Shown one piece after another: positions 1,514 through 20,495 of a DNA stretch of 20,714 nucleotides. The number at the start of each line of letters is the position of its first letter. The first letter of the stretch is position 1. The notes beneath the pieces were generated by a model. The model worked only from the letters and a program-made list of their open reading frames with translations. It searched no databases and was not told the origin of the DNA. Position numbers and translations under genes: made by a program. Source of the stretch: Baffinella frigidus (Eukaryota; Cryptophyceae; Cryptomonadales; Baffinellaceae); assembly GCA_026770585.1 (NCBI GenBank), contig MU647073.1, positions 51,621 through 72,334 of the forward strand, given 5' to 3'.

Positions 1514-1597
1514 CATAGTCGCGATGTAGAGCTCTTCCTCTGCGACGAGGTTCACAACCTTAAGAGCCTCGAATTGCACCAGCTTGTCCAGCCCAGC
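1484..1597 (-). CDS. Methyltransferase exon 7 (C-terminal strand; stop or cryptic donor)
   Basis: The acceptor CCCTAG closes a telomere-like array. The reading AGLDKLVQFEALKVV then EEELYIATM fits the C-terminal strand of the fold and joins HELPNK in phase 0. Two ends are possible. Translation may stop at TAG (1486-1484) after nine further residues, or the strong donor GTCAGTGAG (1513 leftwards) may splice to the flavokinase exon at 678. The second is favoured by donor quality, phase, and the lack of any gene start in between. Confidence 0.72.
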   Translation of the reverse strand, partial: AGLDKLVQFEALKVVNLVAEEELYIATMVSESERPSI

Positions 1598-4500
1598 CTA
1601 GGGTTGGGGTTTGGGGTTTAGGGTTTGGGGTTTGGGGTTCAGGGTTTAGGGTTTGGGGGTTGAGGGTTTGGGGCTTAGGGTTTAGGGTGTAGAGTTAACG
1701 GCCAAAAAACATTCAAGTCAGCCTGCCTGAATCAGAGCTCGACCTTTGTTTGTTTGTTTGTTTGTGTGTTTGTTCGTTCGTTTGATTGTTCTCGTTCGCG
1801 CGGTTATCTAGCTATGTCTCGAGACTATCTGGGCTCAATAATTTAGTGTGCCCGGGCTCTTTCCCGCTCCAAAGTGGACGAATTTGTACCGCACACCCAG
1901 CATGTCAACTTGAGAATAGTCGGCCAACCCGAGTAAGGCAAAACTAGCTACCCTGGAGCCAACTCAGAGGCAAATCGGACCTTTTCTTGGGTAAATTTTC
2001 AAGGGGATGTACTGCGATTTCAGTACATCCCCTTGAAAATTTACCCACGAAATTTTCCAATTTGCCTCTTGAGTTGGCTCCAGGGTGGCTGGCGCTGCCT
2101 CACTCGGGTTGACCGACTATTCTCGAGTTGACATGCTGGGTGTGCGGTGCAAATCCGTCAACTTTGGAGCGGAGGCCCACCATATTGGTGAGCCCAAATG
2201 GACTGGGACAGAGCTAGGAGCTGGACTTCGTTGGGAAGCTCGTGAAGGATGAGGTCCGGCATCGGGTGAGACACCATTCAAAAATGCTGGAGGATCCTAT
2301 TTACATGTAGGGTTGTAAATATGTGTACCAGGATAGTGTATTCCAACCTTGCGGCTGGCCAATATATGGCTAGTTACGTGACCAATCAACGACAGTGACT
2401 ACACGAATGCCCACTTTTAAAAGCATGTCGGTTTTAAATAGCCCCCTCTAGCATTCTCGTGCGGCAGAGCTACAGTGGACCTACCCTAACACATACCCGT
2501 CGGGGCCGGGCTGATTGAGTATGTGTGGAGGGTAGGTATGCGTTATGGTGTCCACCCTTCAGGCGTACTTCCTTGCAGGGGGAAATCGGGGGCCGGCCGA
2601 AGGAGTATGTGTGGAGGGTACGTATGTGTTACGGTAGCCTGTGTTAGGGTAGGTGGACTGTGGACCTTGTTAGGCAGCTCGTGGAGGATGAGGTCCGACA
2701 TCGAGCCCTTGAGCTGCTTTACAAACGCCGCGCCCAGGGGATGCGATACCACCACGCGCCCCCCCCGCTTCACCTGTGAGACCCACAAAGGATTGTTGGG
2801 TTGGTTAATTGATTTAATTGGGATTCGTAAGAAAAAATACTTATGCCATAGTGATTTTTCCTATGATTTCTCGCGCCCTCCTCGCTTCACCTGTGAAACG
2901 CCGCGGGGAGTGCGCCTGCTGAGTCCTTGGTCGGATAGAAAGGGGTCAAACGGGTCTTTTAAATCCGGGTACGAATTCAAAAAATGGTACGAGTCGTGTC
3001 CAACTTGTGGGCGCTTGACTGCTCAAAACTGTAGTCAAGCCAGAAAATACCCGATCCATTTGCCCCCTTGCTATCCGAGCAAGGATCCCGGTTTCGTGTG
3101 AAGTTTCGCAGTCACCACACGGTGGGCTACGAAGTTTTCACAGCACTCAGAATCTGGGTGTAACGTGACCAAATTTGTACCTGAACAGGGCTAAAATAAG
3201 TGAAATTCGGCGAGACTCCTTTGAAAATGAAAACCTCGCGCTCCACAGTGTGGAACGCCTCCTCTCCTGCGGCCAAAAAAAATCGAAAAATCGCATTGAT
3301 TTGCACGTCCGTCTCAAGTTTTATGCTATCTTAGACATGGATTTGAAGACAAGATCGCGACCCCTAACCATAACATGTGACAAAACGAATCATTGTCACG
3401 TTTCCCCTGCCGATTCCGACACCCCGCTGGTGCGAATTCGCCAAGACCCACCCGAGAGAAAACAAACTCCCCTTCGGGGGGCGGGTGGATGGGCGGGGTG
3501 GGGGGGCACTTGACTGGCAGCAGCTCGGAGCGACAGTACTGAAGAGAGAAAAAACCTTCGCTTGGGGAGGGGGCGGGGGGATGACCGTGTGGGGAGAAAC
3601 CAACTTCCCGTGGGGGGGGAGGCAGACGAGGTTGATTAAGTTGACATACACTAAGTTGACATACACGACCGCGGTATGGAGCCAGGGGGAGAGGTGGGAC
3701 GAGACCAGAGGGCTCATGCTGCCCGTAACCACCCCGAGGGGGGGGGGATGGGCGTGGTGGTGGGGGAGCACATGACTGACATCGGTCAGCTATTTGCTGG
3801 GCGGGGGGGGGGGGGGAGCACATGGGAGCACATGGCTGGCATTTCCTCTTCCGCTACCGATACCGACACCGATCAAGTGCCAGACCGTCTTTGGGGGGGG
3901 TGGGGGGGGCACATGGCGGGGGGATGGGGGGGGGGGGGGGGGAGGACATGGCTGGCAGCGGCGCGGAGCGCCAGAACAGGGTCGAACATCGTCGGCAACA
4001 CCGCGTTCAACACCTGCTCATGTATGGAAGGTTTACTACGGGGGAGGGGTAGTTGCTTTATCTAGGTAACTGGAAAGCAATCCTGGCGGTTACTTTTCCG
4101 TCAAAGTTAAGTATTGGCGGGCATTTCCGACAACTTTTGCCAAATTCAAGGGAAAATAATAGATGGACGCAGGGCGTAAAATGACATGTAGCTCTCCCGC
4201 GTAGTAGGGTGTAGGGGTTTCACTGCCCGCCATATCAATAGGGTAACGTCCTGACAACCGGGTAGTTAGGCCTACAGTATTGCCTACGGTAGGCCGTAGG
4301 GCCCGGCAACACCGCATTCAACACCTGCTCCCGCGTGAAAGGTGGTGTTATTCTACTGTTACCGACAGTTATAAAGTGATATTATTCTGGGACCTGACTA
4401 AATCCTGTTAAAGTTTTTTGCAACTTGGGAAGCTCAACTCTTCGAGCTAAATCCTAAACCAAGAGTTGGCTCAGGGGCGCTCCAGCAACAACAGGTGGAG

Positions 4501-6109
4501 GGACGGTTCGAGCGCCAGTACAGGGTCGAACATCGTCGGCAACACCGCGTTCAACACCTGCTCCCGTCTGTAGTATTTAGGGTTTAGGGTTGTCACTGCC
4601 AGCCACATGGCTGGCAGATGGATTGGAACCGGGTGGTGCACGTTTTCGGGATCAGCGCAGGCGGGTGCGTATGCGGGTGAAGGGCCACTCAGAAGACTAC
4701 ATGGACCACGTGTGAACCGGAATTGGATCCTTTTCCTTCAATTTGTATTGGAAATGGTCACGTTACCCCCGGATATCCGCGGAGCAAAAGTCTTCGTAGC
4801 CTCCGGAGTGGTTAGGTGGGGTTTCAAAGTTTTCGGTGCAGCACAGGCAGGAGTGCATGGGTTTTGCTGCAGGGGTCTTACTGCCAGCCACATAGCTGGC
4901 AGCGATCGGAAGTGGGTGGTGCACGTTTCCAGGATCAGCACAGGCAGGTGTGCATGCGGCGCAGGGCCCGGGTTGAGGGTTTAGGGTTTAGGGTTTAGGG
5001 AGTGTGGTTTAGGGTTTAGTGTTTAGCACGACGGTATTAGGGCAGGTCGACCACACCTGCCGCTTCGCCCGCTGCAGGACGAATTGATGCTGACAACCAC
5101 CCTGGAGGCAACTCTGAGGCAAATTGGACCTTTTCTTGGGTAGATTTGCAAGGGGATGTACTGGAATCGCAGTACATCCCCTTGAAAATCTACCCAAGAA
5201 AAGGTCCAATTTGCCTCAGAGTTTCCTCCAGGGTGGATGCTCTTCCAAGGAGAGGTGGGACCATACCACAAGCCCTCCGAAGCAGATCAAATTTAGCCTG
5301 GAGCTTATGCCGCTTCCTTCAAAGGAAGGAGTGAATTCGACCCTGTCCCGGGGTAAATAGCTAATGCTCGAGCCTCCATTTTGATCAACTTCCCACCAAC
5401 CCTCACGGGAGGATCAAACAGTCGATTTTCGACCTATTCCCAAAAGTTGATTTTGCACCAAGATTGCGACTTCTTAAGTTGTAGCCAGACGAATCCGCCT
5501 GGCTGTCAAGGTGAATCCGAGGTCCGAAAATCGACTGTTTGGTCCTTCCGGGATGGTTGGTGGTCGGAGGGCGTGTGGTACCACAGCGTCGAACGGCCGA
5601 TCCGATACCACCTCGGCAGCAGGACCATACCACAAGCCCTCCGAAGTAGATCAAATTTCTCCTAGAGCTTAAGCCGTTTCCTTTAGAGAAAGGTGCGAAT
5701 TCGACCCTGTCCCGGGGTAAATAGCTAATGCGCCAGCCTCCATTTTGATCAACTTCAGAGGGCGTGTGGTACGGGGAAAAGCTAGATTTCATAAGTTGAC
5801 AAACACGACCGCTTCACGCTAAGGGGGGAGGTGCGACGATACCACAGCGTCGAAAGGCCGATCAGGTACCACCTCGGCAGGTGCGGCAGCGTCTGCTGCT
5901 CCCTCCACCGGAGCTTGATCCTCCACGTCCTCCTGTGGGGGGGACGTGCACTGTCAGCAATGTCAGCAGGGTCACGATCCAGACGTGTGCACGTCTCGAC
6001 GCAGCTGACAGTGCATGCCTCGACGCACTGTCAGCTGCGTCACGGGCCGTGACCGTGCGTGCGTGTCAGTGGCAACCCGTCCAAACGTTTGTGAATTTGG
6101 TTGAGGGTC

Positions 6110-6147
<38 letters not shown>

Positions 6148-7831
6148 GGTCGAGGGTTGAGGGTGAAAAAGCATGCATGTCGCTCGTGATCCGTCAGCCA
6201 TATTGAAAACGTCTTCAGGGGGGGGGGGGGGTGCATTGCTAGCCGCCACCAAAGGCTGGCGCCATGAAAGGGCTGGCGAGTGCGTGACCTCATCAGCACC
6301 GGGCTGGAGGTCGCTGAGCAGGCCGCCTTGAGGTCCTTTAGGTTTTAAATGCTCCCAACATATGCGAACGACACGCCCTTCCGTAGAAAGGATCTGCAGA
6401 AAAAGGATTTTTGCTTTCGGATCGCAGCTCTCGCCCAAGTGCAGTTTTATACCCAATACTCTATTTTATCCTCCATACATCTATTTTATACACCTGGTCA
6501 GCACCGGGCTGGAGCTGAGGGACGCCGTGAGCACGTCCCCGAGCACGAGAGAAGTTGATCAAATCGAGGCTGGATTTTGGCCGTTTCTTTCAGGGGAAGG
6601 TGCGAATTCGAACCATCCCTGGGGGAAACGGCTGATTCTCCAGCCTGGAGGTGATCAACTTCGGAGGGTCTGTGGACCTCACCTTATTAGTGACGGCCCC
6701 CAGATTGAGTTTTGTAAGGTAACTCGTTCTGGTACAAGTTATAAAACAAAGACCACTTAAAACTAAAAAGGATTCCAATTCCGTTTTAAACGAGGTCTCG
6801 TTTTATAATGTGTACCAGAACGAGTTACTTTACAAAACCCAGTCTGGGGGCCGTCACTCTGAACCTCGTCAGCGCCGGGCTGGAGGTCGCTGAGGGACGC
6901 CGTGAGCACGTCCCCTAGCACGAACGTCGCGTCGGGGTACCTGGTGTAGGGTTTAGGGTTTAGGGTTTTGGGCTCAGGGGGTAGGGTGCGAGGTTTACGG
7001 TGCAGGGTGTAGGGTTTCGGGTGCAGGATTTAGGGTTTAGGGCTTAGGGCTTAGGGCTTAGGGCATAGGGCGCAGGACTTCGGGCTTAGGGCGTGTGGCT
7101 CAGGGCTCAAGTCTTAGGGCTTGGGTCTTAGGGTTTAGGGTGTGAACCGCTCGCTCGCGATCTCAAGCATCTCCTCGGAGATATCAATCCCCACAACGTC
7201 CGCCTCGCGCGCCCGCCCCTCCTTGGTGAGGAACTCGATCATTGTCCCGGTCCCGACGCCCACGTCCAGCACCCATTCGCCGGGCGACAGCTTAGCGGCA
7301 TCTGCATCGGTTTGCAGGGTCACACTGATGCCGTGGCTGAGGGGCGGCGGGGTACGTAAAGGGAGCACGGTCGCAGAGGGCAACGCCGCGGGGCAAGAGG
7401 GTGCAAAGATCACCGGCGATGCGGTCGAGCCGTGGGCCGACGACTTCGCTCCACCACTTGGCGGGGGCCTCCAGCGCGACCTCGACATTGGCGGGGCGCG
7501 CCGCAAAATCCTCGGCCGCCTCGCGATACACCTCCTCAATCACCTCGTTGTGTGCATCGAGCCGCTCCTGCAGCGTGAAGGCGGGTTCCCCTGCCGCCAT
7601 GCACCGCGCGGGTGCCTGCAACGCGCGCCCCACCACCGGGACACATCGCCGCGCGGGCGCAGCGCGCGGCGCGAACGCCCCGTGGGATCCCGCGCGCAGG
7701 AGCCCGAACGAGCGCCCGCCGACCCCGGCCCAAGCTAGCGGGACGCGGTTGGACGACAGGGCACGCGCGGAGGAGCACGCGACGACGACCGACGATAGAA
7801 GGGTTGTCGGGACCAGCACCCAACGCGCCAT
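1484..7831 (-). CDS. SAM-dependent methyltransferase, 7 exons, possibly fused to riboflavin kinase
   Basis: Hand-spliced model: 7831-7414, 7301-7148, 6940-6865, 5932-5843, 4013-3948, 2773-2666 and 1597-1484 (stop at 1486-1484) or 1597-1514 if the last donor is used. All introns are GT-AG and all phases agree, giving 341 residues. It is a class I Rossmann-fold methyltransferase. Motif I VLDVGVGTG lies at residues 150-158, the acidic motif VVGIDIS ending strand 2 at 175-181, and GDVL at 200-203. FDAV (243-246) continues into NAVLPTMFDP, then a GGRVVVSHPLG strand at 272-282 and a C-terminal EEELYIA. Substrate and reaction are not evident. Residues 1-25 are hydrophobic and signal-like, followed by an Arg/Ala-rich stretch with AFAP near residue 52, so organelle (plastid) targeting is possible. 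An Ala/Glu-rich insertion fills residues 217-238. The donor GTCAGTGAG after ATG at 1514 joins in phase to riboflavin kinase exons further left, so the stop at 1484 may be intronic. Confidence 0.82.
1601..1695 (-). repeat. Interstitial telomere-like array ending at exon 7 acceptor
   Basis: Degenerate TTTAGGG/TTTGGGG units on the plus strand, so CCCTAAA on the sense strand. The array ends directly at the CCCTAG acceptor of methyltransferase exon 7. It is degenerate and intronic, not a chromosome end. Confidence 0.85.
1865..2170. repeat. Long inverted repeat (about 150-bp arms), intron 6
   Basis: Outer arms: CTCCAAAGT...GCACACCCAGCATGTCAAC against GTTGACATGCTGGGTGTGC...CTTTGGAG. Inner arms: GAGCCAACTCAGAGGCAAAT... 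meeting at a palindromic centre near 2017 (GATGTACTG...CAGTACATC). The inner 140 bp (about 1948-2088) belongs to the same family as 5097-5236. Expected to fold into a long hairpin in the pre-mRNA. Confidence 0.85.
2227..2266 (-). repeat. 3'-edge copy of methyltransferase exon 6
   Basis: Repeats the last dozen codons of exon 6 (DLILHELPN) with a following donor GTCCAG, in the downstream intron. Several substitutions relative to the exon. No acceptor sits at its start, so it is probably non-coding. Confidence 0.75.
2474..2659. repeat. Inverted repeat at exon 6 donor, with internal direct repeat
   Basis: Arms AGTGGACCTACCCTAACAC and GTGTTAGGGTAGGTGGACT. Inside, a segment with GAGTATGTGTGGAGGGTA is present twice (about 2516-2550 and 2603-2636). 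The right arm ends only a few bases from the donor of exon 6. Confidence 0.7.
2666..2773 (-). CDS. Methyltransferase exon 6 (GGRVVVSHPLG strand)
   Basis: 36 codons, phase 0 on both sides. Acceptor TCTCACAG; VKRGGRVVVSHPLGAAF begins at 2773 and the exon ends ILHELPNK with donor GTCCAC at 2665. The GG-hydrophobic-SHPLG segment and the following HELP are typical of this methyltransferase class. A 5'-edge copy lies upstream (2872-2890) and a 3'-edge copy with donor GTCCAG lies downstream (2227-2266). Confidence 0.82.
2872..2890 (-). repeat. 5'-edge copy of methyltransferase exon 6
   Basis: On the minus strand an acceptor-like TTTCACAG is followed by GTGAAGCGAGGAGGGCGCG, matching the first codons (VKRGGR) of exon 6, then unrelated sequence. 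It lies upstream of the real exon. Confidence 0.65.
3100..3945. repeat. Intron with poly-G tracts and repeat fragments
   Basis: 3106-3180 resembles the inverted repeat at 20496-20638 (shared CACACGGTGGGCT, GTTACGTGACCA-like). 3470-3945 is dominated by G runs of 7-16 bp, poly-C on the sense strand, with duplicated AAGTTGACATACAC (about 3636-3666). A small copy of the exon 5 3' end (GCCAGCCAT plus GT) is at 3832-3840. The long proline/glycine-rich reading frames here are by-products of the G runs. Confidence 0.55.
3948..4013 (-). CDS. Methyltransferase exon 5 (post-motif IV)
   Basis: 22 codons, phase 0 on both sides: VLNAVLPTMFDPVLALRAAA followed by SH. This is what should follow FDAV and precede the VKRGGRVVV strand. 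Acceptor GAGCAG is at 4016-4014; donor GTCCTC starts at 3947 and leads into a poly-C tract on the sense strand. Two upstream copies of its 5' end (4510-4557 and 4305-4324) diverge or stop before a usable 3' end, so this copy is taken as the real exon. Confidence 0.72.
4305..4324 (-). repeat. Short 5'-edge copy of methyltransferase exon 5
   Basis: GGAGCAG then GTGTTGAATGCGGTGTTGCC on the minus strand: acceptor plus the first six to seven codons of exon 5, then divergence into a CCTACGGTAGG-type repeat. Confidence 0.7.
4510..4557 (-). repeat. Longer 5'-edge copy of methyltransferase exon 5
   Basis: Acceptor GAGCAG followed by 16 codons matching exon 5 (VLNAVLPTMFDPVLAL) with a single-base change, then unrelated sequence without a matching donor. 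It lies upstream of the true exon. Confidence 0.75.
4973..5032 (-). repeat. Telomere-like array
   Basis: GGGTTTAGGGTTTAGGG units on the plus strand (CCCTAAA on the sense strand) within the intron between exons 4 and 5. A shorter run of the same sort is at 4573-4593. Confidence 0.8.
5097..5236. repeat. Inverted-repeat element, same family as 1948-2088
   Basis: Near-perfect arms of about 65 bp: CCACCCTGGAGGCAACTCTG...AAGGGGATGTACTG and its complement. It shares arm and loop sequence with the core of the hairpin at 1865-2170. Two copies in one gene indicate a dispersed, MITE-like family; no transposase is present. Confidence 0.85.
5279..5392. repeat. GAAGTTGATCA-type inverted-repeat element, copy 1
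   Basis: Begins GAAGCAGATCAAATTTAGCCTGG and ends CTCCATTTTGATCAACTTC, with a centre containing GAATTCGACCCTGTCCCGGGG. Same architecture as 5643-5756, 6551-6662 and 12347-12460. Confidence 0.8.
5393..5563. repeat. Inverted repeat with CCACCAAC arms
   Basis: Left arm CCACCAACCCTC...CAAACAGTCGATTTTCG and right arm CGAAAATCGACTGTTTGGTC...GATGGTTGGTGG, about 45 bp each, around an unrelated centre of about 80 bp. It abuts the element at 5279-5392. Confidence 0.8.
5582..5621 (-). repeat. 3'-edge copy of methyltransferase exon 4 with donor
   Basis: On the minus strand: GCTGCCGAGGTGGTATCGG...TTCGACGCTGTG then GTACCAC. It repeats the last 13 codons of exon 4 with substitutions (P to S in VVPDRP). An AG within it would give a 30-nt frame-preserving unit, but that would duplicate a core strand of the fold, so it is treated as an intronic copy. 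Confidence 0.7.
5643..5756. repeat. GAAGTTGATCA-type inverted-repeat element, copy 2
   Basis: GAAGTAGATCAAATTTCTCC...GCCTCCATTTTGATCAACTTC. Flanking ACCACAAGCCCTCC and GAGGGCGTGTGGT extend the inverted repeat to about 5629-5771. The internal GTGCGAATTCGACCCTGTCCCGGGG is shared with copy 1. Confidence 0.8.
5843..5932 (-). CDS. Methyltransferase exon 4 (acidic/Ala-rich insert, FDAV)
   Basis: Acceptor CACAG precedes 5932. The exon is exactly 30 codons, phase 0 on both sides. It starts with an Asp/Glu/Ala-rich stretch (EDVEDQAPVEGAADAAAPAE) and ends RPFDAV, the strand-4 motif of class I methyltransferases. The low-complexity first half looks like an insertion relative to typical family members. 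Donor GTATCG is at 5842. A copy of the 3' end with its own donor is at 5582-5621. Confidence 0.75.
6100..6164 (-). repeat. GGGTTGA heptamer array
   Basis: About nine tandem GGGTTGA/GGGTCGA units, a variant of the telomere-like heptamer, within the intron between exons 3 and 4. Confidence 0.85.
6290..6320 (-). repeat. 3'-edge copy of methyltransferase exon 3, second
   Basis: Minus strand CTCAGCGACCTCCAGCCCGGTGCTGATGAG then GTCACG: the last ten codons of exon 3 (LSDLQPGADE) with donor. Downstream of the true exon. Confidence 0.75.
6333..6425. repeat. Dispersed repeat shared with 16610-16710
   Basis: AGGTCCTTTAGGTT, GCTCCCAACATATGCG, CTGCAGAAAA and CTTTCGGATC occur in the same order near 16618-16705. 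The function is not apparent. Confidence 0.6.
6499..6546 (-). repeat. 3'-edge copy of methyltransferase exon 3, first
   Basis: Minus strand GTGCTCGGGGACGTGCTCACG...CCGGTGCTGACCAG then GTGTAT. It matches the second half of exon 3 but has lost a GAC codon region and has no acceptor in front. Confidence 0.75.
6551..6662. repeat. GAAGTTGATCA-type inverted-repeat element, copy 3
   Basis: GAAGTTGATCAAATCGAGGCTGG...CCAGCCTGGAGGTGATCAACTTC, a well-conserved copy lying immediately beside an exon 3 edge copy (6499-6546). Confidence 0.85.
6689..6858. repeat. Inverted repeat with CTCGTTCTGGTAC arms, copy 1
   Basis: Left arm AGTGACGGCCCCCAG...GTAACTCGTTCTGGTAC; right arm GTACCAGAACGAGTTAC...CTGGGGGCCGTCACT, about 60 bp each. 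The right end lies six bases from the donor of methyltransferase exon 3. Related to 9318-9420. Confidence 0.85.
6865..6940 (-). CDS. Methyltransferase exon 3
   Basis: The telomere-like array ends exactly at acceptor CCAG (6944-6941). The split Arg codon restores the frame and gives ERYPDATFVLGDVL, the usual continuation after motif II. It ends in phase 0 at GAG (6865) with donor GTTCAG. Two copies of its 3' end lie downstream in the intron, at 6499-6546 and 6290-6320. Confidence 0.82.
6948..7141 (-). repeat. Telomere-like array filling intron 2
   Basis: TTTAGGG and variants (CTTAGGG, GTGTAGG) on the plus strand; CCCTAAA-like on the sense strand. It occupies almost the whole 206-bp intron, from just after the donor of exon 2 to the acceptor of exon 3. 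Confidence 0.85.
7148..7301 (-). CDS. Methyltransferase exon 2 (SAM-binding motifs I and II)
   Basis: The acceptor is GATGCAG at 7304-7302. Exon 1 (phase 1) joins to give a DAAKLSPGEW sequence leading straight into VLDVGVGTG, the SAM-binding glycine loop, and then VVGIDISEEMLEIAS. It ends in phase 2 at 7148. The intron starts GTTCAC and runs directly into a CCCTAAA-type array. The 112-bp intron 1 is the shortest in the gene. Confidence 0.85.
7414..7831 (-). CDS. Methyltransferase exon 1 (start, leader, helical N-domain)
   Basis: The exon begins at the ATG at 7831-7829 and ends in phase 1 at donor GTGATC (7413). The first 25 residues (MARWVLVPTTLLSSVVVACS...) look like a signal peptide. An Arg/Ala-rich stretch with GAFAPRA follows, then from about residue 75 an acidic helical region (LQERLDAHNEVIEEVYREAA) and a WW...VGPRLDRI segment just ahead of motif I. 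No in-frame ATG lies between an upstream stop and this one that would suit the leader better. Targeting is inferred, not shown. Confidence 0.8.
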
Positions 7832-8081: not shown

Positions 8082-8306
8082 ATGGAGGATGGCGCAGCCA
8101 AGGTGGCAGCGCTCAGGGCCAAGCGCGACGCGTGGATGTCGCAGCGCTCGGCAGCGATGGAGCGCGAGAACATGCGCAGCGAGGACGGCGGGCTGGTTGC
8201 CCTCGGCGGCGGAGCAGGGGACGGCGGCGCTGTGAACGACGATTTGGTGCTGGACCGCATCACGGAGCAGATCACCAGCAGGCTGCGCGAGGAGCTCCGC
8301 ATTGAG
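8082..8306 (+). CDS. RING gene exon 1 (N-terminal helical region)
   Basis: 75 codons from the first ATG of this frame (MEDGAAKVAALRAKRDAWMS). It contains Arg/Glu-rich helices, a Gly/Ala linker (LGGGAGDGGA) and ITEQITSRLREELRIE, then donor GTGCCC, phase 0. The antisense strand is also open over a long stretch; that is a composition effect. Confidence 0.8.
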
Positions 8307-11300
8307 GTGCCCTGCCGCTTCCTACTGCGTCCTCCCCGGGATTTCCTTGCCACACCAGGATTGGGGAACAGCTTTCCCCGAACCGAGAACCTTCCTGGTG
8401 GGCAGCGAGACGGGTACCGATGGGCGCACGGGGCAGCAGCGGCCGTCCACCGTACGGTCTGGACAACTCCAGTGCATTGATGCGCGCCGCACGGTTCTGT
8501 GATAGTACCGATTACCAGCTCATGCGAAATTGAGGAAACGCATCCTGTGCTCACGACGGTCCTCGTTGCCGGGCGTGCAGGTGCAGCGAGAGGAGCAGGT
8601 CGCGTCGCGGCAGCGCGCCAAGGAGGGGGAGGAGATCGGGGGGTACCTGGCGTCGGAGCTGGAGTCGACGACGTGCCCCATCTGCTACGAGCTGATGCAG
8701 GCGCCCCAGCACACGCCGACGCTCCTCTTCCCCTGCGGACACACCTTCTGCATCGAGTGCGTCACTGTATGCCCCCACTCCCTCCATAGCCCTCCCCCAC
8801 CCCCCCCCACACACACTCTGTAGCTGTCTCCCCCCAGGACCGCTCCTCCCCCCCATCTCTGCTCATCTCTGCCGGGCCGCCTGCGTCGCTTTACATCACG
8901 ATCAAGTCAACCCTTCCCACCGGAGCGAAAGACTGGACCTCGGCAACCCCCGCGAGACGCCCAACACCCCGCACGACTGAGCGTTTTCCGCGCTGCATCG
9001 CCCCTGCCATTCGCTCCGTCCGTCCTCCGCGCGATCCGTCATCCATCCTCCCACGTTGTGAACAAATCAACTCGCTCTTCTAAAAAAATGGACGGATGGA
9101 CCCCCTCGCCAGGCGAAGCACCAGCCGACGTGCCCGCACTGCCACCCCCGGGAAGTTGATCAACCCGAGGCTTGCTATCAGCCATTTCCCCCGGGGGGGG
9201 GGTGCGGAATCGACCGTTCCCCGGCGGAAACGGCTCACGCTCAAAACCCGCGCAGGCGCACATCAAGGCGAACCATCGGCACACGTGCCCGCACTGCCAC
9301 CCTCATAGTACCTGGATCTGGTTTTAGATTCGTCAAATGGCTCGTTCTGGTGACTTGTAGCCCCTTTAGTTTTATTATTTGTACCAGAACGAGCCACTTT
9401 ACGAATCTAAAGCGAGACCCAATCTCTATTAACCCCGTACTGCCACCCCCGGGAAGTTGATCAAACCGCGGCTTGCTATTAGCCATTTCCCCCTGGGGAA
9501 GGGTGCAGAATCGACCGTTCCCCGGCGGAAACGGCTCACGCTCAAAACCCAATCAGGCGCACATCAAGGCGAACCATCGGCACACGTGCCCGTACTGCCG
9601 TGTCAAGATCGAGAAGCAGGCGCCGAATATGCTCCTGCAGCAGCTCATAGACGGCTTCGCGCAGAAAAAGGTGTCCTCCTCACACCTCTCTCCTACCTAT
9701 GTGTGAAGATTAATGGTTTCTTCCCGAGTTGGGAGCGGTTCTACAGCTGCCAACTCGGGAAGAAACCATTTCTTCCCGATTGACTGTACAAGTGTTTTTA
9801 TCTGGCTTTTTGCGCCGCAGGCTGCCCGATTTCGGGGAAAATCTCGTACAATTGCCCGAGAAACGCAAAACCCGCAATCGAAAGTCAATCGGTTCGAAGA
9901 GAGAATGTTCGGCCGCGGTGAAATCACTTGTAAAGTCAATCGGGGAAGAAAAAAAAGACTTTTGAGTGGCAGATAGAAAATGCGAGTCTTTCCAAAAAAT
10001 CTCTCTCTTCGCCCTGGTGTGTCCCGGATTTCTGAGACTACCACGACTTTTTCCTAATTCGAACTTTTCCCAGAAAAAGGCAAGCTGCGATTTATCATCG
10101 TGCTGGTTCAAAAATTGCCCGGTCCATCAAGAGTCTCAGGACTCTCAGATTCCCGACCTAAGCCTGACCTACGCCTGCATGTCTAGCGCCTTTTTCTCCC
10201 CCCAAATCCTCTACAACAGTCGAGACTTTCAGATACCTAACAACGTTCCCCCCCCGGAAACCAGGGGGGGGGCGTTGTTAGGTATTTGAAAATCGGTTCA
10301 TCAACAGTCGCGGGACTCTCAGATTCCTGGCCTAAGCAAGCATGTTCAGCGACTGTTTCTCCCCCCAAATCCTAACAGCGTCTAAACCCTGACACCCTAA
10401 CCCCAAAACCAGACGTCAACAACGCAGACAGCAGCGGCTCTCAGATTCCTGACCCAAGCCTGCCCCACGCCTGCATGTCTAGCGCCTTTTTCTCCCCCCA
10501 AATCCTCTACAACAGTCGGGACTTTCAGATACCTAACAACGTATCCCCCCGGGAACCTTAAACCCTAAACCCTACACCCTAAACCCTACACCCCAAACCC
10601 TACACCCTAAACCCTAAACCCTGACACCCTAACCCCAAAACCAGACGTCAACAAGCAGAAAGCAACGACTCTCAGATTCCTAACCCAGGCCAGACCCAAT
10701 CCCGGTTCATCAACACCGGAATTGGGGGAGAACCCTTGATGAACCGGGCATGTTTCTCCCCCAAACCCCAACAACGTCTCCCTCCGGAACCCAGGCGTCC
10801 ACGACACAGAAAGCAGCGACGGCCGCGGGACTCTCAGATTCCTGACGAACGCCAGCATGTTAGGCGACTGTTTCTCCCCCCAAACCCTAACAACGTCCCC
10901 CCCCCGGCACCCAGGCGTCAACGACGCCGTTTCGTTAAGGGCGTTGTCCCGTGGACTCTCTTATAGGGAGGTCCTAATACGTGACTCCTGGCCCTAAACC
11001 TCTAACCCCTCATCCAGGCGTCGACGACACAGAAAGCAGCGGCGGCGGCCGCCCGCCCTCCCGCCGCGGTCGCACAGATGGCCCTCGCTGTCGAAAGGCC
11101 AGGTCTGCACACCCTCCAACCCCTAACCCCTAAACCTTAAACCTTGAAATCCTGCCCCCCTACACCCAGAACCGTAAATCCTAGACCCTGAACCCCTCCT
11201 GCCGCGGTCGCACAGATGGCCCTCGCTGGTGAAAGGCCTGGTCTGACACCCTCTAACCCCTAACCTTCTTCTTCTTTTTTCTTCTGACCCCTAACCCCTG

Positions 11301-14300
11301 ATCCCTGAACCTTAAAATCTTAAACCCTAAACCCTGAACCCTGAACCCTAAACCCGAAACCCCTCCTGCCGCGGTCGCGCATATGGCCCTCTCTGTGGAA
11401 AGAACTGGTCTGCATGCCCTCTGCACCCTGAACCCTAAACCTTGAACCTTAAAATCCTCAACCCTAAACCCTGAACCCTCAGATGTTGGGCGGATCCTGG
11501 CCGAGTGCCACGGGGAGGCGCGCGGGACAAACCACCGACGTTCCGTTGCCTTAACCGTAGGAACCCACCTGTCCCTACGGTATTGCCTTCCGCAGGGCCT
11601 AGGGACTATTCACTTGGGGGGTTTTCAAAACCCCTTCGAAGTCCGTATGTGGGATGGCTCAGTCAACTCTCGTACGTGGACGTAGTAGTTTTTGTTGCCA
11701 GAATCTGGAGGGAAAAAATAAGTTTCCCCGTATAAGGATGGTTCAGTCAACTCTCGTGCGTGGATGGGGGCCACAGATGTCGGGCGGATCCTGGCCGACT
11801 GTCCCGGGGAGGCGCGGGGGCAGATCGAAGACTACATTCGCCAGTGGCGCGCCCTCCAGATGCGGTGCACGCGCCCGTCCACTTAGCTCATTTGGTTGAC
11901 TTAACAGGGCAGGGCAGGTTTTTGATGCTCGTAAGGTCGTGTGAGCGTCCTCTGGATGCGGTGAACTTGCCTGCCTCGGTTGACTTAACAGGGATTCCCT
12001 GTCTCGGTTGACTTAACAGGTCAGGGCAGGTTTTGGTGCTGGGAAGGTCTCGTGAGCGTCTTTTCAGAAATGCTGGAGTGTTGTGATTGGGTGATGCACC
12101 AGGGCGATGACGGAGATAGGCTCTCGCGTGGTACCTGGGACAACGAAGCACCTTCCACCCCTGACATGAAGAATGTGCTAACCCCCTGTCAGCATCGCAT
12201 CAAGAAGAAAACCGTGTTATCTAACACGTAAAATCGGGTTAGATTCATTCCAAATTTAGCAATCTTTCAAGTGGGAAAACATTCGCCGAATCCGACGAGG
12301 CTTTCCGGGGAAGGTGGCGGATCTCGAGATTGAAGCGCCCCCGAGCGAAGTGGGTCAAATCCAGGCTGGAGCATCCGCCATTTTCTTCGGCCAGAGCTTC
12401 GAATTCGAGAATTCATGCCGGGGGATGGCTCAATTTCTAGCCTCGATCTGACCCGCTTCGGACTGAAGGTGGCGGATCTACGACAACGAGGCGGCCGACT
12501 GCAAGCGCGACGAGGCCAACATCCGCGCGAAAAGGTCCCCACCCGCCCAAAATATGCATATGCACATAACATATAAAATATAATATATAATATATATTAC
12601 ATAATATATAATAATATATGTGTTTAAATGTTTATATGAATTGGGTTTCGTGTGGCCTCCACAGCGACAAGGCCAACATCCGCGCGCGAAGGTCTTCACC
12701 CGCCCAAAATATGCATATGTATATAATATATAATATATTTCATATATAATATATAATATATAACATACTTGTATAATATATGTATATAAATATGTATTTG
12801 AATTGGGTGTCGTGTAGCCCCAACAGCGACGAGGCCAATATCCGCGCCCGAAGGTCTTCACCCCCCAATACTTTCCTTTCGAATTGAGCTTTGTGCAGCA
12901 TCGTCAACTTTTGCGATCGATGAATTGTTTTCGTGGCCACCAGACGTGAAAACCGCTCTATACTGACAAGGTGATGCGCACGTGCAGAGAGGCGTCCGGA
13001 CTTGTGCGCAAGCACCTTCATACCGAGCTCGCTGACTCCAAGCACCGGTGCGCCTCCCACGGAAGTTGACTTAGGCCCACGGAAGTTGACTCCCAGGGGA
13101 GTTGACTTAAGCAGGGATGGTCCTGTTGACTTACACCGGGGAATTTATTGGACGATTCGTGTGCATGTTCGTTGCCGTGCTGGTACAGAACCAGAACGGT
13201 TTGTTGAGCTGGGAGTCTCGTTTAGGTCGGGGAACTTCTCGAATTCAAAGTAATTATCATTCGGAATTTGGCTAGGGTAGGGTGGACGGTTGACGGTTGA
13301 CGGCTGGCGGTTGTCGGTTTAGGGTTAAGGGTTCACGGTTTAGGCAGGCGCTAGGGCTCCTACGACCGCGTGTCTTGACCGCATGATACCTACCCTTCTT
13401 CGGAGGAGAATTCCAATGAGTTTTTTGAGGCGGTACGCTGCAACACCCCAAACCGTGCGCCGCTTGTGCGTATGTTCAAAACCCGAAACCTTAAACCATA
13501 AACCCTAAAACCCAAACCCCAAACCCTAAACCCCAAACCCTAGACCCCAAACCCTAAACCCTAAACCCTAAACCCTAAACCCTAAACCCTAAATTCTAAA
13601 CCCTAAAACTTAAACACTAAACCCTAAACCCTATACCTCAAACCCTAAACCCTAAACCCTAAACCCTAAACCCTAAACCCTAAACCCCAAACCCTAGAAC
13701 CCAAACCCCCAACCCCCACCCCCCAACCCCAAACCCTAAACCCTAATCCTCAAACCCCAAACCCCAAACCCCAAACCCTCAACCACAAACCCAAAACCTC
13801 GCAGGGTGGAGCTGGCGTTGCAGGAGGTGCAGCTGATCGAGGATCAGATCGAGATGCAGAAGGACAAGGTCAGTCTAGGCCTGTCGTGCACACTAGCGTG
13901 ACCCAATCCCAATGCCGGAGAGGGACCCAACCTGCACAAGATGTGCAGGTTGGATGGGCCAGTTGCGGTTGGGTGGGCCGGTTGCATAAAAAGTCAACCC
14001 TCTTCCCCCTCCGCGAACAACGGTTGACGTGTTCGGCGGTTGACTAAACCTGTCAGGTTATGTACCAGCGGGTAGAGTGAACCGGGAAGGCGTTTACCAG
14101 GAAGACCTCAAATTAGTCAACCGCTTCTTGTGAGGGTGGAACTGGCGCTGCAGGAGGTGCAGCTGATCGAGGATCAAATCGAGATGCAGAAGGACAAGGT
14201 CAGCCCCCCCCCCCACACACACACAGCGGCTTTCGAAGGGATTTCGTGAATGACCCCAAAGCGACAAGACCCAGGACCCTACGGTAGGAAACCCGTAGGG

Positions 14301-16037
14301 ACATAGGGGGGTTCCTACGGATAAGGTCACGCTGATCGAGGACCAGATCGAGATGCAGAAGGACAAGGTCAGCCCCCCCCCCCACACACACACAGCGGCT
14401 TTCGAAGGGATTTCGTGAATGACCCCAAAGCGACAAGACCCAGGACCCTACGGTAGGAAACCCGTAGGGACATAGGGGGGTTCCTACGGATAAGGTCACG
14501 CTGATCGAGGACCAGATCGAGATGCAGAAGGACAAGGTCTCAAGAGACTACCCAGCTCCTTAGCCTTTTGCACGATTGTCTCCAGTGCGGCAGCGGGGTT
14601 CCGGGTTGAGGGTTCGTCCCGCCTCCTCTGCAGAAGCCGTCTCGAAAATGATGACGGGCCACACGAGAATGCTAGAGGGGCCTATTCAAAACTGATGTGC
14701 TTTTACAAGTGGGCGTTTGTGTAGCAACTTTCGTTGATTAGCCACGCAACTCTGGATCAGATCGAGATGCAGAAGGACAAGGTCCGGCCCACAACTTGTG
14801 CAGGCTGGGCGGGCCGGTTGCATAAAGTCAACCCTTACCCCCATCCGCGAACAACGGTTGACTAATACGGCGGTTGACTAAACCGGGCAGGTTCTGCACC
14901 AGCAGGTTTTTTTCTGTGGCCCCAGCGCAGTTGTTGGTCTTGACTAATGCAGCTCTCTTTCACGCAGGACGTGCAAATGGACTCGGGCGTGGTGGAGAGG
15001 CGCCGGTGGCAGCAGCAAACACTGGCTTTTGGCCCAGGAATTTGCTGGCTTTTGGCCCAGGAATGGCAAAAGCATGGGCCAAAAGCCAGCAATTGGAGCC
15101 GTTCCTGGGCGCAATAATGTTTCAAGGAGGGAGCCTCAACCTTGCATTCTGACTCGTGTCCACGAAACGTCCTACGATTCGACTCTCGTCCAGTAACCGT
15201 CCACCGAGTCGACTGGGAGTGTACCGGAGTCAGCAATTGGAGCCATTCCTGGGCACAATAATGTTTCATGTGTACCAGGGAACACTTGGAGGGAGCTTCA
15301 ACCTGACGTGATCTGGCGTGGCAGGATGTGCAGATGGACTCGGACGTGGCGGAGCGGCGGCGGCGACAGCAACTGATCGCCACCACGCTCGACGCCCTCG
15401 CTCTCGAGCGCTCCAAGGTTCTTCTTCTTCTTCTTCTTTGTTACTATCAGCCTTGAGATGCGCGATCTAAATGTCTATGCACCGTAAGGTACACAGCCAG
15501 TCGATTCGTTGGGACGGTTTGTGGTCACCTTGGTCGCGGTTCATGTTGGACAAGGGCGTCTCGATTATCCCTCAAGTGGCGAGTAGGCTCATACGCCCTA
15601 CGGTACGGCCCTAGGACCTGCCTGGGGTGAGTTAGAGCGAATATCCGCCCGTCCGCCACTTGAGGGATAATATCCCCCCCCCCCCCTTCAACACCACCAT
15701 AGGGCCCTAGGTGTCGAACCCGCTGTAGGGTCCTACAGCGGGGTGACTGTGTCCCGGGCGCTGTCTTTGAATCGAGGCACCTCTTTAATATGAACCTCTC
15801 AATTAGAGCGTACTAAGCTTCTCAGCCGAGGCGAGTTTCTTGTAAAGTTACTTGTAACGTTACTTGTAACGTTACTTGTAAAGTTACTTGTAAAATTGCT
15901 TGTAACGTTACTTGTAAAGTCACTGAGAGAGACACACTGTAAAGCGACTGATCATTTCTCCATGGCAGGTGCGGTTGATGGTGGAGCATTTCGTGCCTCC
16001 AGGGACGGACATCAACGCGGTTCTTCCAGAGGACTGA
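8082..16037 (+). CDS. RING finger (C3HC4) and coiled-coil protein, 9 exons
   Basis: Hand-spliced model: 8082-8306, 8581-8760, 9557-9670, 11018-11102, 11777-11864, 12469-12534, 13805-13868, 15325-15417, 15969-16037. It totals 984 nt, 327 residues plus stop; every junction is GT-AG and all phases agree. RING at 107-149: C107-x2-C110-x16-C127-x-H129-x2-C132-x2-C135-x10-C146-x2-C149, with PCGHTFC and TCPYCR typical of E3 ubiquitin ligases. A short N-terminal helix (from residue 4) and a Gly-rich linker come before; an Ala-rich stretch (about 174-195) and a charged coiled coil (about 203-305) come after. The protein ends in INAVLPED. The likely role is an E3 ligase that oligomerises through its coiled coil; the target is unknown. 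Introns contain many copies of exon edges, and some may be optional exons. Confidence 0.85.
8581..8760 (+). CDS. RING gene exon 2 (first half of RING finger)
   Basis: 60 codons, phase 0. Carries CPIC (107-110) and FPCGHTFCIEC (126-135), then donor GTCACT. The acceptor may be either of two AGs six bases apart (8580 or 8586; both keep the frame), a NAGNNNNAG arrangement that could add or drop Val-Gln. Confidence 0.88.
9128..9300 (+). repeat. Upstream duplicate unit of RING exon 3
   Basis: Contains a fragment ACGTGCCCGCACTGCCACC (9129-9147), a half GAAGTTGATCA element (9152-9248), then acceptor GCAG and 45 nt of the exon 3 5' edge (9256-9300). The same order recurs at 9438-9600 (short CTGCCACCCCCGGG fragment, half element at 9453-9549, real exon 3), so the unit was duplicated in tandem and split by the inverted repeat at 9318-9420. 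Confidence 0.75.
9318..9420. repeat. Inverted repeat with CTCGTTCTGG arms, copy 2
   Basis: TTTAGATTCGTCAAATGGCTCGTTCTGG against CCAGAACGAGCCACTTTACGAATCTAAA, with a T-rich loop. Related in arm sequence to 6689-6858. Confidence 0.82.
9557..9670 (+). CDS. RING gene exon 3 (second half of RING finger)
   Basis: 38 codons, phase 0: AHIKANHRHTCPYCR completes the zinc site, followed by the post-RING helix APNMLLQQLIDGF and donor GTGTCC. The intact exon is distinguished from its upstream copy at 9256-9300, which runs into sequence without a donor and reads CPHCH. Confidence 0.88.
9712..9770. repeat. Perfect short hairpin after RING exon 3
   Basis: Arms AATGGTTTCTTCCCGAGTTGG and CCAACTCGGGAAGAAACCATT, 21 bp each, loop 17 bp, 41 bp after the donor. 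Confidence 0.85.
9771..9949. repeat. Inverted repeat abutting the hairpin
   Basis: TCTTCCCGATTGACTGTACAAGTG against CACTTGTAAAGTCAATCGGGGAAGA, spacing about 130 bp. It begins at the base after the preceding hairpin and shares the TTCTTCCCGA end. Confidence 0.75.
10120..10930 (+). repeat. Intronic repeat cluster with 5'-edge copies of RING exon 4
   Basis: A segment GACTCTCAGATTCCTGAC...TTTTTCTCCCCCCAAATCC...CAACGT recurs at about 10130, 10310, 10436, 10668 and 10828. Four times an acceptor CCAG is followed by the start of exon 4 (ACGTCAACAACGCAGACAGC and variants) at 10413-10437, 10645-10668, 10795-10828 and 10915-10930, each cut at a different point. A hairpin TTTCAGATACCTAACAACG...CGTTGTTAGGTATTTGAAA (10227-10291) and a short one at about 10702-10747 lie inside. 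A CCCTAAA array is at 10556-10640. Confidence 0.75.
11018..11102 (+). CDS. RING gene exon 4 (Ala-rich linker)
   Basis: 85 nt, phase 0 to phase 1. Acceptor ATCCAG; reads ASTTQKAAAAAARPPAAVAQ then MALAVERP, donor GTCTGC. Chosen because it is the only copy that has both the acceptor-side sequence (four upstream truncated copies) and the donor-side sequence (two downstream truncated copies). Confidence 0.75.
11108..11480 (+). repeat. Telomere-like CCCTAAA/CCCTGAA sequence
   Basis: Degenerate CCCTAAACC, CCCTGAACC and CCCCTAACC runs between the exon 4 edge copies, ending at CCCTCAG, the acceptor of the truncated exon 5 copy at 11483. Confidence 0.8.
11195..11407 (+). repeat. Two tandem 3'-edge copies of RING exon 4 with donors
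   Basis: GCCGCGGTCGCACAGATGGCC...GGCCTG then GTCTGA (11195-11240) and a diverged second copy ending AACTG then GTCTGC (11362-11407). Both are followed by the same telomere-like intron sequence as after the real exon, so the unit 'exon end plus intron start' has been duplicated twice. Confidence 0.8.
11483..11530 (+). repeat. 5'-edge copy of RING exon 5
   Basis: ATGTTGGGCGGATCCTGGCC... after acceptor CTCAG; matches the first 45 nt or so of exon 5, then diverges. A 28-bp direct repeat (GGATGGCTCAGTCAACTCTCG, about 11652 and 11738) lies between it and the real exon. Confidence 0.75.
11777..11864 (+). CDS. RING gene exon 5 (start of coiled coil)
   Basis: 88 nt, phase 1 to phase 2. Acceptor CCACAG; the split codon gives DVGRILADCPGEARGQIEDY, then IRQWRALQM, donor GTGCAC. 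A truncated copy of the first 45 nt or so, also with an acceptor, lies at 11483-11530. Confidence 0.8.
11890..12065 (+). repeat. Direct repeats with GGTTGACTTAACAGG
   Basis: GGTTGACTTAACAGGGCAGGGCAGG...GGTCGTGTGAGCGTC at about 11896-11950 is repeated at about 12007-12060, with an extra GGTTGACTTAACAGG between them. The GTTGACTTA motif recurs at 13060-13135. Confidence 0.65.
12347..12460. repeat. GAAGTTGATCA-type inverted-repeat element next to RING exon 6
   Basis: CGAAGTGGGTCAAATCCAGGCTGG...TCTAGCCTCGATCTGACCCGCTTCG. It sits between the short 5'-edge copy of exon 6 (12314-12325) and the exon itself (12469). Confidence 0.75.
12469..12534 (+). CDS. RING gene exon 6 (coiled coil)
   Basis: 66 nt, phase 2 on both sides. 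Acceptor CTGAAG; reads WRIYDNEAADCKRDEANIRA then K, donor GTCCCC. Two 27-nt copies of its 3' end follow in the intron, each with AG in front and GT behind; a 12-nt copy of its 5' edge precedes it (12314-12325). Confidence 0.78.
12545..12810 (+). repeat. AT-rich duplicated intron segment
   Basis: Two units starting CACCCGCCCAAAATATGCATATG, running through about 80 bp of TATAATATA-like sequence and ending GAATTGGGT(T/G)TCGTGT(G/A)GCC...ACAG. Strongly different in base composition from the rest of the window. Confidence 0.8.
12665..12691 (+). CDS. Candidate 27-nt microexon (copy of exon 6 end), first
   Basis: CCACAG precedes and GTCTTC follows 27 nt reading DKANIRAR in the phase (2 to 2) of exon 6. 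Inclusion adds nine residues without shifting the frame. It lies in a tandem unit with an AT-rich stretch. Either a real optional coiled-coil exon or a duplicated edge that is ignored; transcripts would decide. Confidence 0.4.
12827..12853 (+). CDS. Candidate 27-nt microexon (copy of exon 6 end), second
   Basis: CAACAG precedes and GTCTTC follows 27 nt reading DEANIRAR, again phase 2 to 2 and closer in peptide to exon 6 than the first copy. The preceding unit (12692-12826) repeats the AT-rich sequence after the first copy. Confidence 0.4.
13264..13346 (+). repeat. GGTTGACGGTTTAGGG-type array in the opposite orientation
   Basis: Plus-strand GGTTGACGGTTGACGGCTGGCGGTT...TTTAGGGTTAAGGG within a plus-strand gene. 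It is the only sizeable telomere-like run here whose sense strand is TTTAGGG rather than CCCTAAA, and it is mid-intron, not at an acceptor. Confidence 0.7.
13482..13799 (+). repeat. Longest telomere-like array, ending at RING exon 7
   Basis: About 318 bp of CCCTAAA, CCCCAAA and minor variants, ending at ACCTCGCAG, the acceptor of exon 7. Degenerate throughout. Confidence 0.9.
13805..13868 (+). CDS. RING gene exon 7 (coiled coil)
   Basis: 64 nt, phase 2 to phase 0. The acceptor CTCGCAG ends a 300-bp telomere-like array; VELALQEVQLIEDQIEMQKD then K, donor GTCAGT. A full-length second copy with the same phase is at 14135-14198. Including both would break the frame, so at most one can be used per transcript. 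Confidence 0.8.
14135..14198 (+). CDS. Duplicate of RING gene exon 7 (alternative exon)
   Basis: 64 nt, same start and end points, same phases and, with only synonymous changes, the same peptide as 13805-13868. Acceptor TGTGAG is weak; donor GTCAGC is followed by a C11 tract. Because the phase is 2 to 0, it could only replace exon 7, not be added to it. It may be a mutually exclusive exon or an unused duplicate. Confidence 0.55.
14326..14367 (+). CDS. Candidate 42-nt cassette exon, first copy
   Basis: GATAAG precedes and GTCAGC follows 42 nt (VTLIEDQIEMQKDK), phase 0 to 0, 14 residues or two heptads. Exon 7 ends in phase 0, so inclusion keeps the frame and adds two turns of heptad to the coiled coil. 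The acceptor lacks a pyrimidine tract, so use is uncertain. Confidence 0.4.
14495..14536 (+). CDS. Candidate 42-nt cassette exon, second copy
   Basis: Identical to the copy at 14326-14367, with acceptor GATAAG and donor GTCTCA; phase 0 to 0. Both copies could be included in series without a frame shift. Expression is unknown. Confidence 0.4.
14754..14781 (+). repeat. Further 3'-edge copy of RING exon 7
   Basis: GGATCAGATCGAGATGCAGAAGGACAAG with donor GTCCGG, but no in-frame acceptor. The following sequence (CAACTTGTGCAGG...GGGCCGGTTGCATAAA...AACAACGGTTGACT) repeats 13930-14060, so the intron start was copied along with the exon end. Confidence 0.75.
14968..15021 (+). repeat. 5'-edge copy of RING exon 8
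   Basis: Acceptor CACGCAG then GACGTGCAAATGGACTCGGG... matching the first 17 codons of exon 8 with substitutions, then unrelated GGCTTTTGGCCCAGGAA repeats. Confidence 0.8.
15022..15270 (+). repeat. Short direct and inverted repeats before RING exon 8
   Basis: GGCTTTTGGCCCAGGAAT occurs twice (about 15028 and 15048), followed by its complement GGCCAAAAGCC (about 15077). AGCAATTGGAGCCGTTCCTGG...CAATAATGTTTCA at about 15087 recurs at about 15233. Confidence 0.75.
15325..15417 (+). CDS. RING gene exon 8 (coiled coil)
   Basis: 31 codons, phase 0. Acceptor GTGGCAG; DVQMDSDVAERRRRQQLIAT continues to LDALALERSK, donor GTTCTT followed by a CTT repeat. An upstream copy of the first 54 nt or so (14968-15021, DVQMDSGVVERRRWQQQ) has the acceptor but no donor. 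Confidence 0.82.
15564..15671. repeat. Inverted repeat ATTATCCCTCAAGTGGCG
   Basis: Perfect 18-bp arms ATTATCCCTCAAGTGGCG and CGCCACTTGAGGGATAAT, about 70 bp apart, with a CCCTACGGTACGGCCCTAGG core, in the last intron of the RING gene. Confidence 0.85.
15839..15922 (+). repeat. 12-bp tandem repeat, 7 units
   Basis: CTTGTAACGTTA / CTTGTAAAGTTA, seven contiguous units, 46 bp before the acceptor of RING exon 9. Intronic minisatellite. Confidence 0.92.
15969..16037 (+). CDS. RING gene exon 9 (C-terminus and stop)
   Basis: 22 codons and TGA (16035-16037). Acceptor ATGGCAG, phase 0; VRLMVEHFVPPGTDINAVLP then ED. The stop is followed within five bases by a long inverted repeat. Confidence 0.82.
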   Translation: MRLMVEHFVPPGTDINAVLPED

Positions 16038-20475: not shown

Positions 20476-20495
20476 GTCAACAGGTTATTTCACCA

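Follow-up and report, generated by a model that had tools for sequence, protein, structure and literature searches.

Truncated exon copies in introns of the cryptophyte Baffinella frigidus as probable remnants of local tandem duplication

The introns of a RING-finger gene of the cryptophyte Baffinella frigidus, a single-celled Arctic alga, contain truncated copies of the gene's own exons, with the copies of 5' edges lying upstream and the copies of 3' edges lying downstream of the exon that they resemble. The question raised by this locus is whether such a polarity is a rule of its own, as the preliminary description of the sequence had proposed, or the trace of a known kind of mutation.

Genes of the window and the sample of exons

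The window, which is the whole stretch of DNA analysed here (20,714 nt), is nuclear DNA of B. frigidus (contig C733:51621-72334; the assembly searched has 382 Mb). The RING-finger gene (8082..16037, plus strand) has ten exons in a complete frame, with E1 to E5 at 8082-8306, 8581-8766, 9557-9670, 11018-11102, and 11777-11864, and E6 to E10 at 12469-12534, 12988-13047, 13805-13868, 15325-15417, and 15969-16037. Its product, in a nine-exon version, is matched by Pfam RING families. The annotated B. frigidus protein P0001 (T484DRAFT_3431940) is 100% identical over 78% of the RING query, agreeing with E1-E6 and then running into the intron, where it ends. The exon E7 (12988-13047), which encodes an LVRKHL-type segment, is shown by the relatives P0002-P0005 (read by eye); it was missing from the exon set first described, so that exons 7 and 8 of that set correspond to E8 and E9 here. 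The RING-like part of a metagenome protein, P0025, has 61% identity over 26% of the query, and its frame stays open between the first RING half and CPYC, across 33 residues. If this stretch were an unspliced intron, it would measure about 99 nt versus 790 nt in the window, a difference that would fit lineage-specific growth, with one protein as its basis.

The second gene encodes a SAM methyltransferase (1481..7831, minus strand) with a complete ORF and seven exons, M1 to M7 (7831-7414, 7301-7148, 6940-6865, 5932-5843, 4013-3948, 2773-2666, and 1597-about 1481), the structure of which was guided by the homologue P0042. The Pfam family Methyltransf_25 matches the second exon, and none of the four proteins returned by the protein search for this gene carries a Baffinella name. 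Elsewhere in the window, at 20394-20483, there is a 30-residue piece with no Pfam match, which we take to be a possible start of a protein kinase domain.

For the window, local alignments compared each exon with the 2.5 kb before and after it, the gene's own exons being masked, and a local score of at least 30 was taken as a copy; among 20 Markov shuffles of the flanks per exon, the highest scores were 22-29 where an exon had matches. Five of the 21 copies in the window stop 3-10 nt inside the edge and were filed under the nearer edge in the joint table. For comparison beyond the window, chaperonin genes were chosen by their family (PF00118, 10 matches in a genome search) and not by the presence of copies, although their exon cores were hand-picked from the reading frames after the first loci had shown some copies. 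This sample comprises three genes, on contigs C94, C6, and C1202, with 17 exon cores, of which 16 belong to two genes that we take to be the CCT1 and CCT-delta subunits and one (L031) to the gene on C1202. Their edges are approximate, some being ends of peptide cores and not fixed splice sites, and the shuffled maxima for CCT1 and CCT-delta were 21-26 (10 shuffles each). The joint table comprises 34 exons of five genes, with flanks of 2 kb. Two further chaperonin exons on C39 (L032 and L038) had no copy at a score of at least 32 and stand outside this table, and the first CCT1 exon (L033) has a concordant copy that is below the threshold and hence was left uncounted.

Exon copies, their polarity and their divergence

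In the RING gene, two copies of E3 reach the threshold upstream of the exon: a 5'-edge copy of 43 nt (9256..9298) with its AG and 123 nt of intron side in common, and an older 5'-side copy that begins at exon base 11 (9111..9143). Upstream of E4 there are two copies at threshold, at 10795..10826 with the AG kept and at 10414..10438 with a score of exactly 30, as well as two weaker copies found by eye, at 10645 and at 10915..10926, the latter a 5'-edge copy of 12 nt located 87 nt before the CCAG of the real acceptor. The 3' edge of E4 is copied twice downstream (11194..11238 and 11361..11402). Single 5'-edge copies with the AG kept lie upstream of E5 (11483..11526) and E9 (14968..15014). The acceptor copies first reported for E3, E4, E5, and E9 were thus recovered, whereas that of E6 comes down to a 15-base exact match seen by eye (12310-12324 versus 12465-12479), which is outside the counts.

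The donor copies of the same report were recovered in full at a score of at least 30. Besides the two of E4, they include two 3'-side copies downstream of E6 (12664..12686, with 147 nt of intron side in common, and 12826..12847), three 3'-edge copies downstream of E8, which was exon 7 of that report (14331..14367, 14500..14536, and 14754..14781), and a whole copy of E8 (14135..14198). The first of the E8 edge copies is part of a tandem array with a 169-nt unit made of exon end plus intron, present in 2.2 copies with 99% matches. The whole copy has its AG and GT intact and differs from E8 at three positions, all synonymous, and is a possible alternative exon.

In the minus-strand methyltransferase gene of the window, seven of seven copies follow the same polarity. 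M3 has two 3'-edge copies downstream (6494..6548 and 6289..6332), M4 has one (5582..5619), and M6 has a 3'-side copy (2230..2264), also downstream. M5 is copied on both sides, with a 5'-edge copy of 48 nt with one difference (4510..4557) and a short one (4304..4324) upstream and a 3'-edge copy (3511..3539) downstream. Together, the two genes have 21 copies, 20 of them partial and all concordant, plus the whole one. The few genes sampled beyond the window repeat the pattern, with 10 of 10 copies concordant in the chaperonin genes (nine of nine in CCT1 and CCT-delta and one more from L031).

In the joint table, 31 local copies were found for 34 exons at a score of at least 30. All 13 copies of 5' sides are upstream and all 17 copies of 3' sides are downstream, with one whole-exon copy, also downstream, and no inverted copies at the same threshold. 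The polarity first described is therefore real, being concordant in 30/30 partial copies, the other strand and other contigs included. As copies of one edge can descend from each other, the 21 distinct edges, of which 21 are concordant, are the fairer count. A copy is present for 18 of the 34 exons, or 18 of 36 if the two C39 exons are counted. The partial copies end within 3 nt of the exon edge (the edge of the exon core in the chaperonins) in 24 of 30 cases and within 13 nt in the others, and the gap between copy and exon ranges from 57 to 886 nt, with a median of 267 nt (31 copies). Inverted or internal copying was rejected, as no copy is inverted and every partial copy ends within 13 nt of an edge.

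That the copies are assembly artefacts, made from allelic or repeated short reads, is almost certainly not the case. The genome paper describes Illumina reads assembled with AllPathsLG (PMC9756366), and the number of units in the near-identical 169-nt array could be in error; however, misassembly was rejected because the copies vary widely in identity, lie at distances of 57-886 nt from the exon, are interspersed with later insertions, and occur on four contigs, and there is no N in the window.

The splice dinucleotide at the edge, AG or GT, which each copy had been said to keep, is retained in 26/31 copies (11/13 and 15/18, respectively) but not in the others; some chaperonin edges are approximate, and one chaperonin donor copy (L041 at 2026) has TT where the exon has GT. 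An annotation-free survey of the ends of 305 local repeats (54 in the window; 109,743 bases) gave no clear signal of splice-like dinucleotides. Between copies and exons there are 81 differences, distributed over codon positions 1, 2, and 3 as 17:9:55 (26 rows, some of common ancestry), of which 53 are synonymous and 28 are not. In the L031 copy, five of five differences are synonymous, as are four of four in one of the two L040 copies. A drifting copy beside a constrained exon predicts that at most about half of the differences fall on third positions, if mutability is equal. Third positions rich in GC, a diverged template, or some constraint may lie behind the excess, and the case for coding constraint on the copies is weakened since third positions may simply mutate more.

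Two alternatives draw on these differences. Very unlikely, to judge from the sequence, is that some copies have been kept as working alternative splice sites or exons, in line with the decoys of the preliminary description, a reading that the synonymous differences of the whole E8 copy (3/3), of L031, and of L040, the overall 53 versus 28, and the AG or GT retained in 26/31 would suit. Yet an exon that has lost part of its length, and has no partner to supply the rest, cannot yield an identical protein, the AG and GT stay regardless if a duplicated unit spans them, and P0003 and P0005, read by eye, have one segment of E8 length and not two. Slightly more improbable still is an origin of the copies in repair that used a diverged template (the other allele, a homeologue, or a cDNA) by way of exon homology. 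Such a template would account for a homology that is mostly limited to the exon and for the excess of third-position differences; against it, one Baffinella-named protein is found among the 39 RING matches, most of which are nameless, the copies read by eye do not continue into the adjacent exon, unlike a cDNA, and the intron side is in common in several cases.

Tandem duplication and the intron side of the copies

The copies are direct and near their source exon, and several share the adjacent intron. Here it is proposed that they are probably remnants of local tandem duplications within introns, the unit of which happened to span one splice site. A unit reaching from the intron into the exon would give [intron + exon start][intron + exon start + rest], with the truncated copy upstream, and a unit reaching from the exon into the intron would leave it downstream. 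Either slippage or the repair of staggered breaks or nicks would have produced the duplications, and the data do not discriminate between them. Only those that left the mRNA unchanged would have survived, as is the case when splicing takes the site attached to the full exon. Elements, filler, or telomere-like arrays inserted later, at the splice site or next to it, would then break up the intron side in common.

The observed polarity follows from this geometry, as a tandem unit across one splice site must leave its truncated copy on the intron side. Among random units simulated on the RING gene, 73% fell in introns, 19% spanned one edge, 6% spanned two or more edges, and 2.5% were inside an exon, and the units spanning one edge yielded the observed polarity only. 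Pieces on the wrong side need another mechanism, and the polarity is thus diagnostic of tandem duplication and not a new rule, contrary to the first proposal. Within the two genes of the window, 51 local duplicate pairs (offsets of at most 1500, dust filter on, telomere-like pairs excluded) have blocks that cover 33% and 24% of the introns. Splice sites fall in duplicated blocks in 7/18 and 6/12 cases, or 13/30, versus about 29% of intron positions, a weak excess of 13 over about nine expected; moreover, homology persists longer on the exon side because one of its partners is constrained. Edges are therefore hardly special among duplicated positions, and the special role given to them earlier was not borne out; nor is splicing retained at the outermost site, as had been suggested, since the working site is the innermost.

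The intron side, taken as contiguous homology counted from each copy's own edge, is at most 6 nt in 19/31 copies (14/21 in the window and 5/10 in the chaperonins) and 11-147 nt in 12. It is clearly in common (extension score of at least 16) in 6/31 copies, with 123, 25, 70, 147, 55, and 43 nt; these belong to E3, the E4 donor (two), E6, and two chaperonin genes (one copy each). In simulated random tandem units (RING gene, uniform break points, log-normal unit length set by the analyst), an intron side of 6 nt or less occurs in 2.5%, versus the 19/31 observed. This gap is large, though copies of one edge are not independent, and displacement offers an explanation for only three of the cases.

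In the first of these, M4, the 18 nt after the copy's donor recur 70 nt past the real donor (score 31), and both are followed by a 135-nt repeat (5756-5622 and 5392-5258, 90%, repeat score 205). The M4 unit looks like 38 nt of exon plus intron, and from the two recurrences 70 nt seem to have been inserted precisely at the real donor. In the case of M5, a 31-nt piece of the flank upstream of the copy recurs at 4235-4205 (a modest score of 37), 191 nt upstream of the real acceptor and not 20. For E8, the intron side (14803-14907) of the copy at 14754..14781 matches 13967-14073 past the real E8, a 107-nt block (score 128) behind extra sequence adjoining the donor. The intron side thus seems displaced behind a later insertion in M4, M5, and E8. 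Further out, E5, E9, and M6 gave no displaced intron-side homology, and M3 gave matches to a dispersed repeat only. The breaking up of the intron side by insertions is supported in these three cases and presumed elsewhere.

The short intron sides are also what would be expected if insertions, by introner- or MITE-like elements or as filler at staggered breaks, duplicated a target of 15-60 nt across the splice site. With a second AG or GT supplied by the duplicated target, the insert would be removed by splicing, and the resulting polarity would be identical to that of tandem duplication. Elements do lie between copies and exons: a dispersed, MITE-like hairpin (9303..9437, plus strand) is inserted between the E3 copy and E3, and one repeat (2372-2465 and 14658-14751) is located between the real donor and the copy in two different genes. 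Additionally, direct repeats that straddle the E6 (15 nt) and E4 (16 nt) acceptors, seen by eye, flank inserts. The hairpin, queried with 9128-9400, gave at least 115 match rows with 40 of 82 candidates scored, both arms and the rows of the window included. Its target duplications, read by eye at six loci (L003-L008), measure 3-4 nt, however, and not 15-60 nt, so that target-site duplication by the E3 hairpin was rejected as the cause, in agreement with the preliminary description, which had found such duplications far too short. The edge repeats hold 21-64 nt of exon and vary, unlike a constant short target duplication (one element compared). The intron side that is clear in 6/31 copies and in the 169-nt array, and displaced in M4, M5, and E8, also stands against insertion with target duplication, which is considered unlikely. 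In these cases the same evidence supports a tandem duplication that took in the end of an exon together with the intron next to it, the displacement in M4, M5, and E8 being apparent.

Telomere-like arrays, known systems and intron growth

Telomere-like arrays are a further component of these introns. In the five-gene sample, CCCTAAA is on the coding strand in 25 of the 25 arrays counted, of which 24 are within known gene spans and one is about 800 nt upstream of the L031 exon; six TTTAGGG arrays more than 1.6 kb beyond the last tested CCT-delta exon were left uncounted. Those of the window include 13479-13798, 6941-7141, and 1604-1688, and a short stretch of opposite sense in a RING intron (13278-13344) is below the array criterion. 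In 7 of 15 array-bearing introns, the final array stops no more than 25 nt from the acceptor, versus 1.3 expected by uniform placement and a maximum of five in 5000 permutations, whereas the first array starts within 25 nt of the donor in one of 15, with 1.3 expected; some chaperonin "introns" in this test may contain unrecognised exons.

Intron 2 of the methyltransferase gene (6941-7147, minus strand, 207 nt) is almost all telomere-like repeat, from GTTC to CCAG. Two side observations by eye concern the chaperonin locus L041. Past a donor the sequence reads VIPN and the next exon starts with VIPK (8107-8117 and 8418-8428), as if this intron had been born inside a short duplication, and an apparent GC-AG intron is present at 8637.

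The arrays may be a sign of insertion at splice junctions or may serve as a pyrimidine-rich tract; in the sense strand, TTTAGGG would abound in AG and GT. A joint reading, tentative and of low probability, is that introns grow from their ends and that C-strand telomere-like arrays act as ready 3' intron ends. On the first half of this doubtful pair, duplicates, MITE-like elements, and arrays would enter preferentially at the splice junction; on the second, the telomere-like arrays would outcompete stranded decoy sites.

Short tandem duplications and local ones mediated by repair are among the nearest known systems, reportedly treated also by Messer and Arndt 2007. Pace et al. 2009 (PMC2671141) describe short local duplications of intron and exon-border DNA, with four partial exon/intron donors in a table for a set of 824 duplications. 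That study removed tandem cases, whereas the Baffinella copies are direct and beside their source in 31/31 cases, and 18/34 Baffinella exons carry one. Transposition or repair capture of the Pace type would also give inverted, internal, and wrong-side pieces, none of which is present in the joint table. The cases of Lehmann et al. 2010 (PMC2891723) are similar in having duplicated exon DNA with splice-like sites and one copy intronic; however, they concern novel intron positions, whereas in Baffinella existing introns lengthen and the protein is unchanged. Introners (Gozashti et al. 2022, PMC9860276; Amoebophrya, PMC7789003) are alike in that their elements come upon splice sites and that an AG or GT can be supplied by target duplications, which measure 3-9 bp where the survey (PMC9860276) mentions them, but they form families of near-identical whole introns, whereas the Baffinella edge copies are pieces of host exons. 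The word stem "crypt" is absent from the main text of that survey. The telomere-like arrays resemble those of Nergadze et al. 2007 (PMC2246262), which lie inside chromosomes and were inserted at breaks, and differ in being intronic, C-rich on the sense strand, and crowded at acceptors.

The titles and abstract openings searched, largely without subscription papers, hold no description of edge-copy introns in cryptophytes. According to its genome paper, B. frigidus has a genome of 534.5 Mb, 6.1 times that of Guillardia theta, with 41.1% repeats, and the word "intron" is absent from the paper's main text (PMC9756366). To the extent that these sources cover it, local tandem duplication that includes splice sites is already known in kind (PMC2671141, PMC2891723), and the Baffinella edge copies, seen in five genes, are a vivid variant of a known mutation type.

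For Baffinella, the edge copies are a readable record of harmless intron lengthening: each copy is a scar of predicted side, so that counting and dating them would give a rate of intron growth. They also illustrate that a striking sequence rule can be plain geometry plus selection. The oddity that remains is the presence of insertions and telomere-like arrays at splice junctions and, should the reading of growth from the ends be true, telomere repeats would be a working splicing element in this alga.
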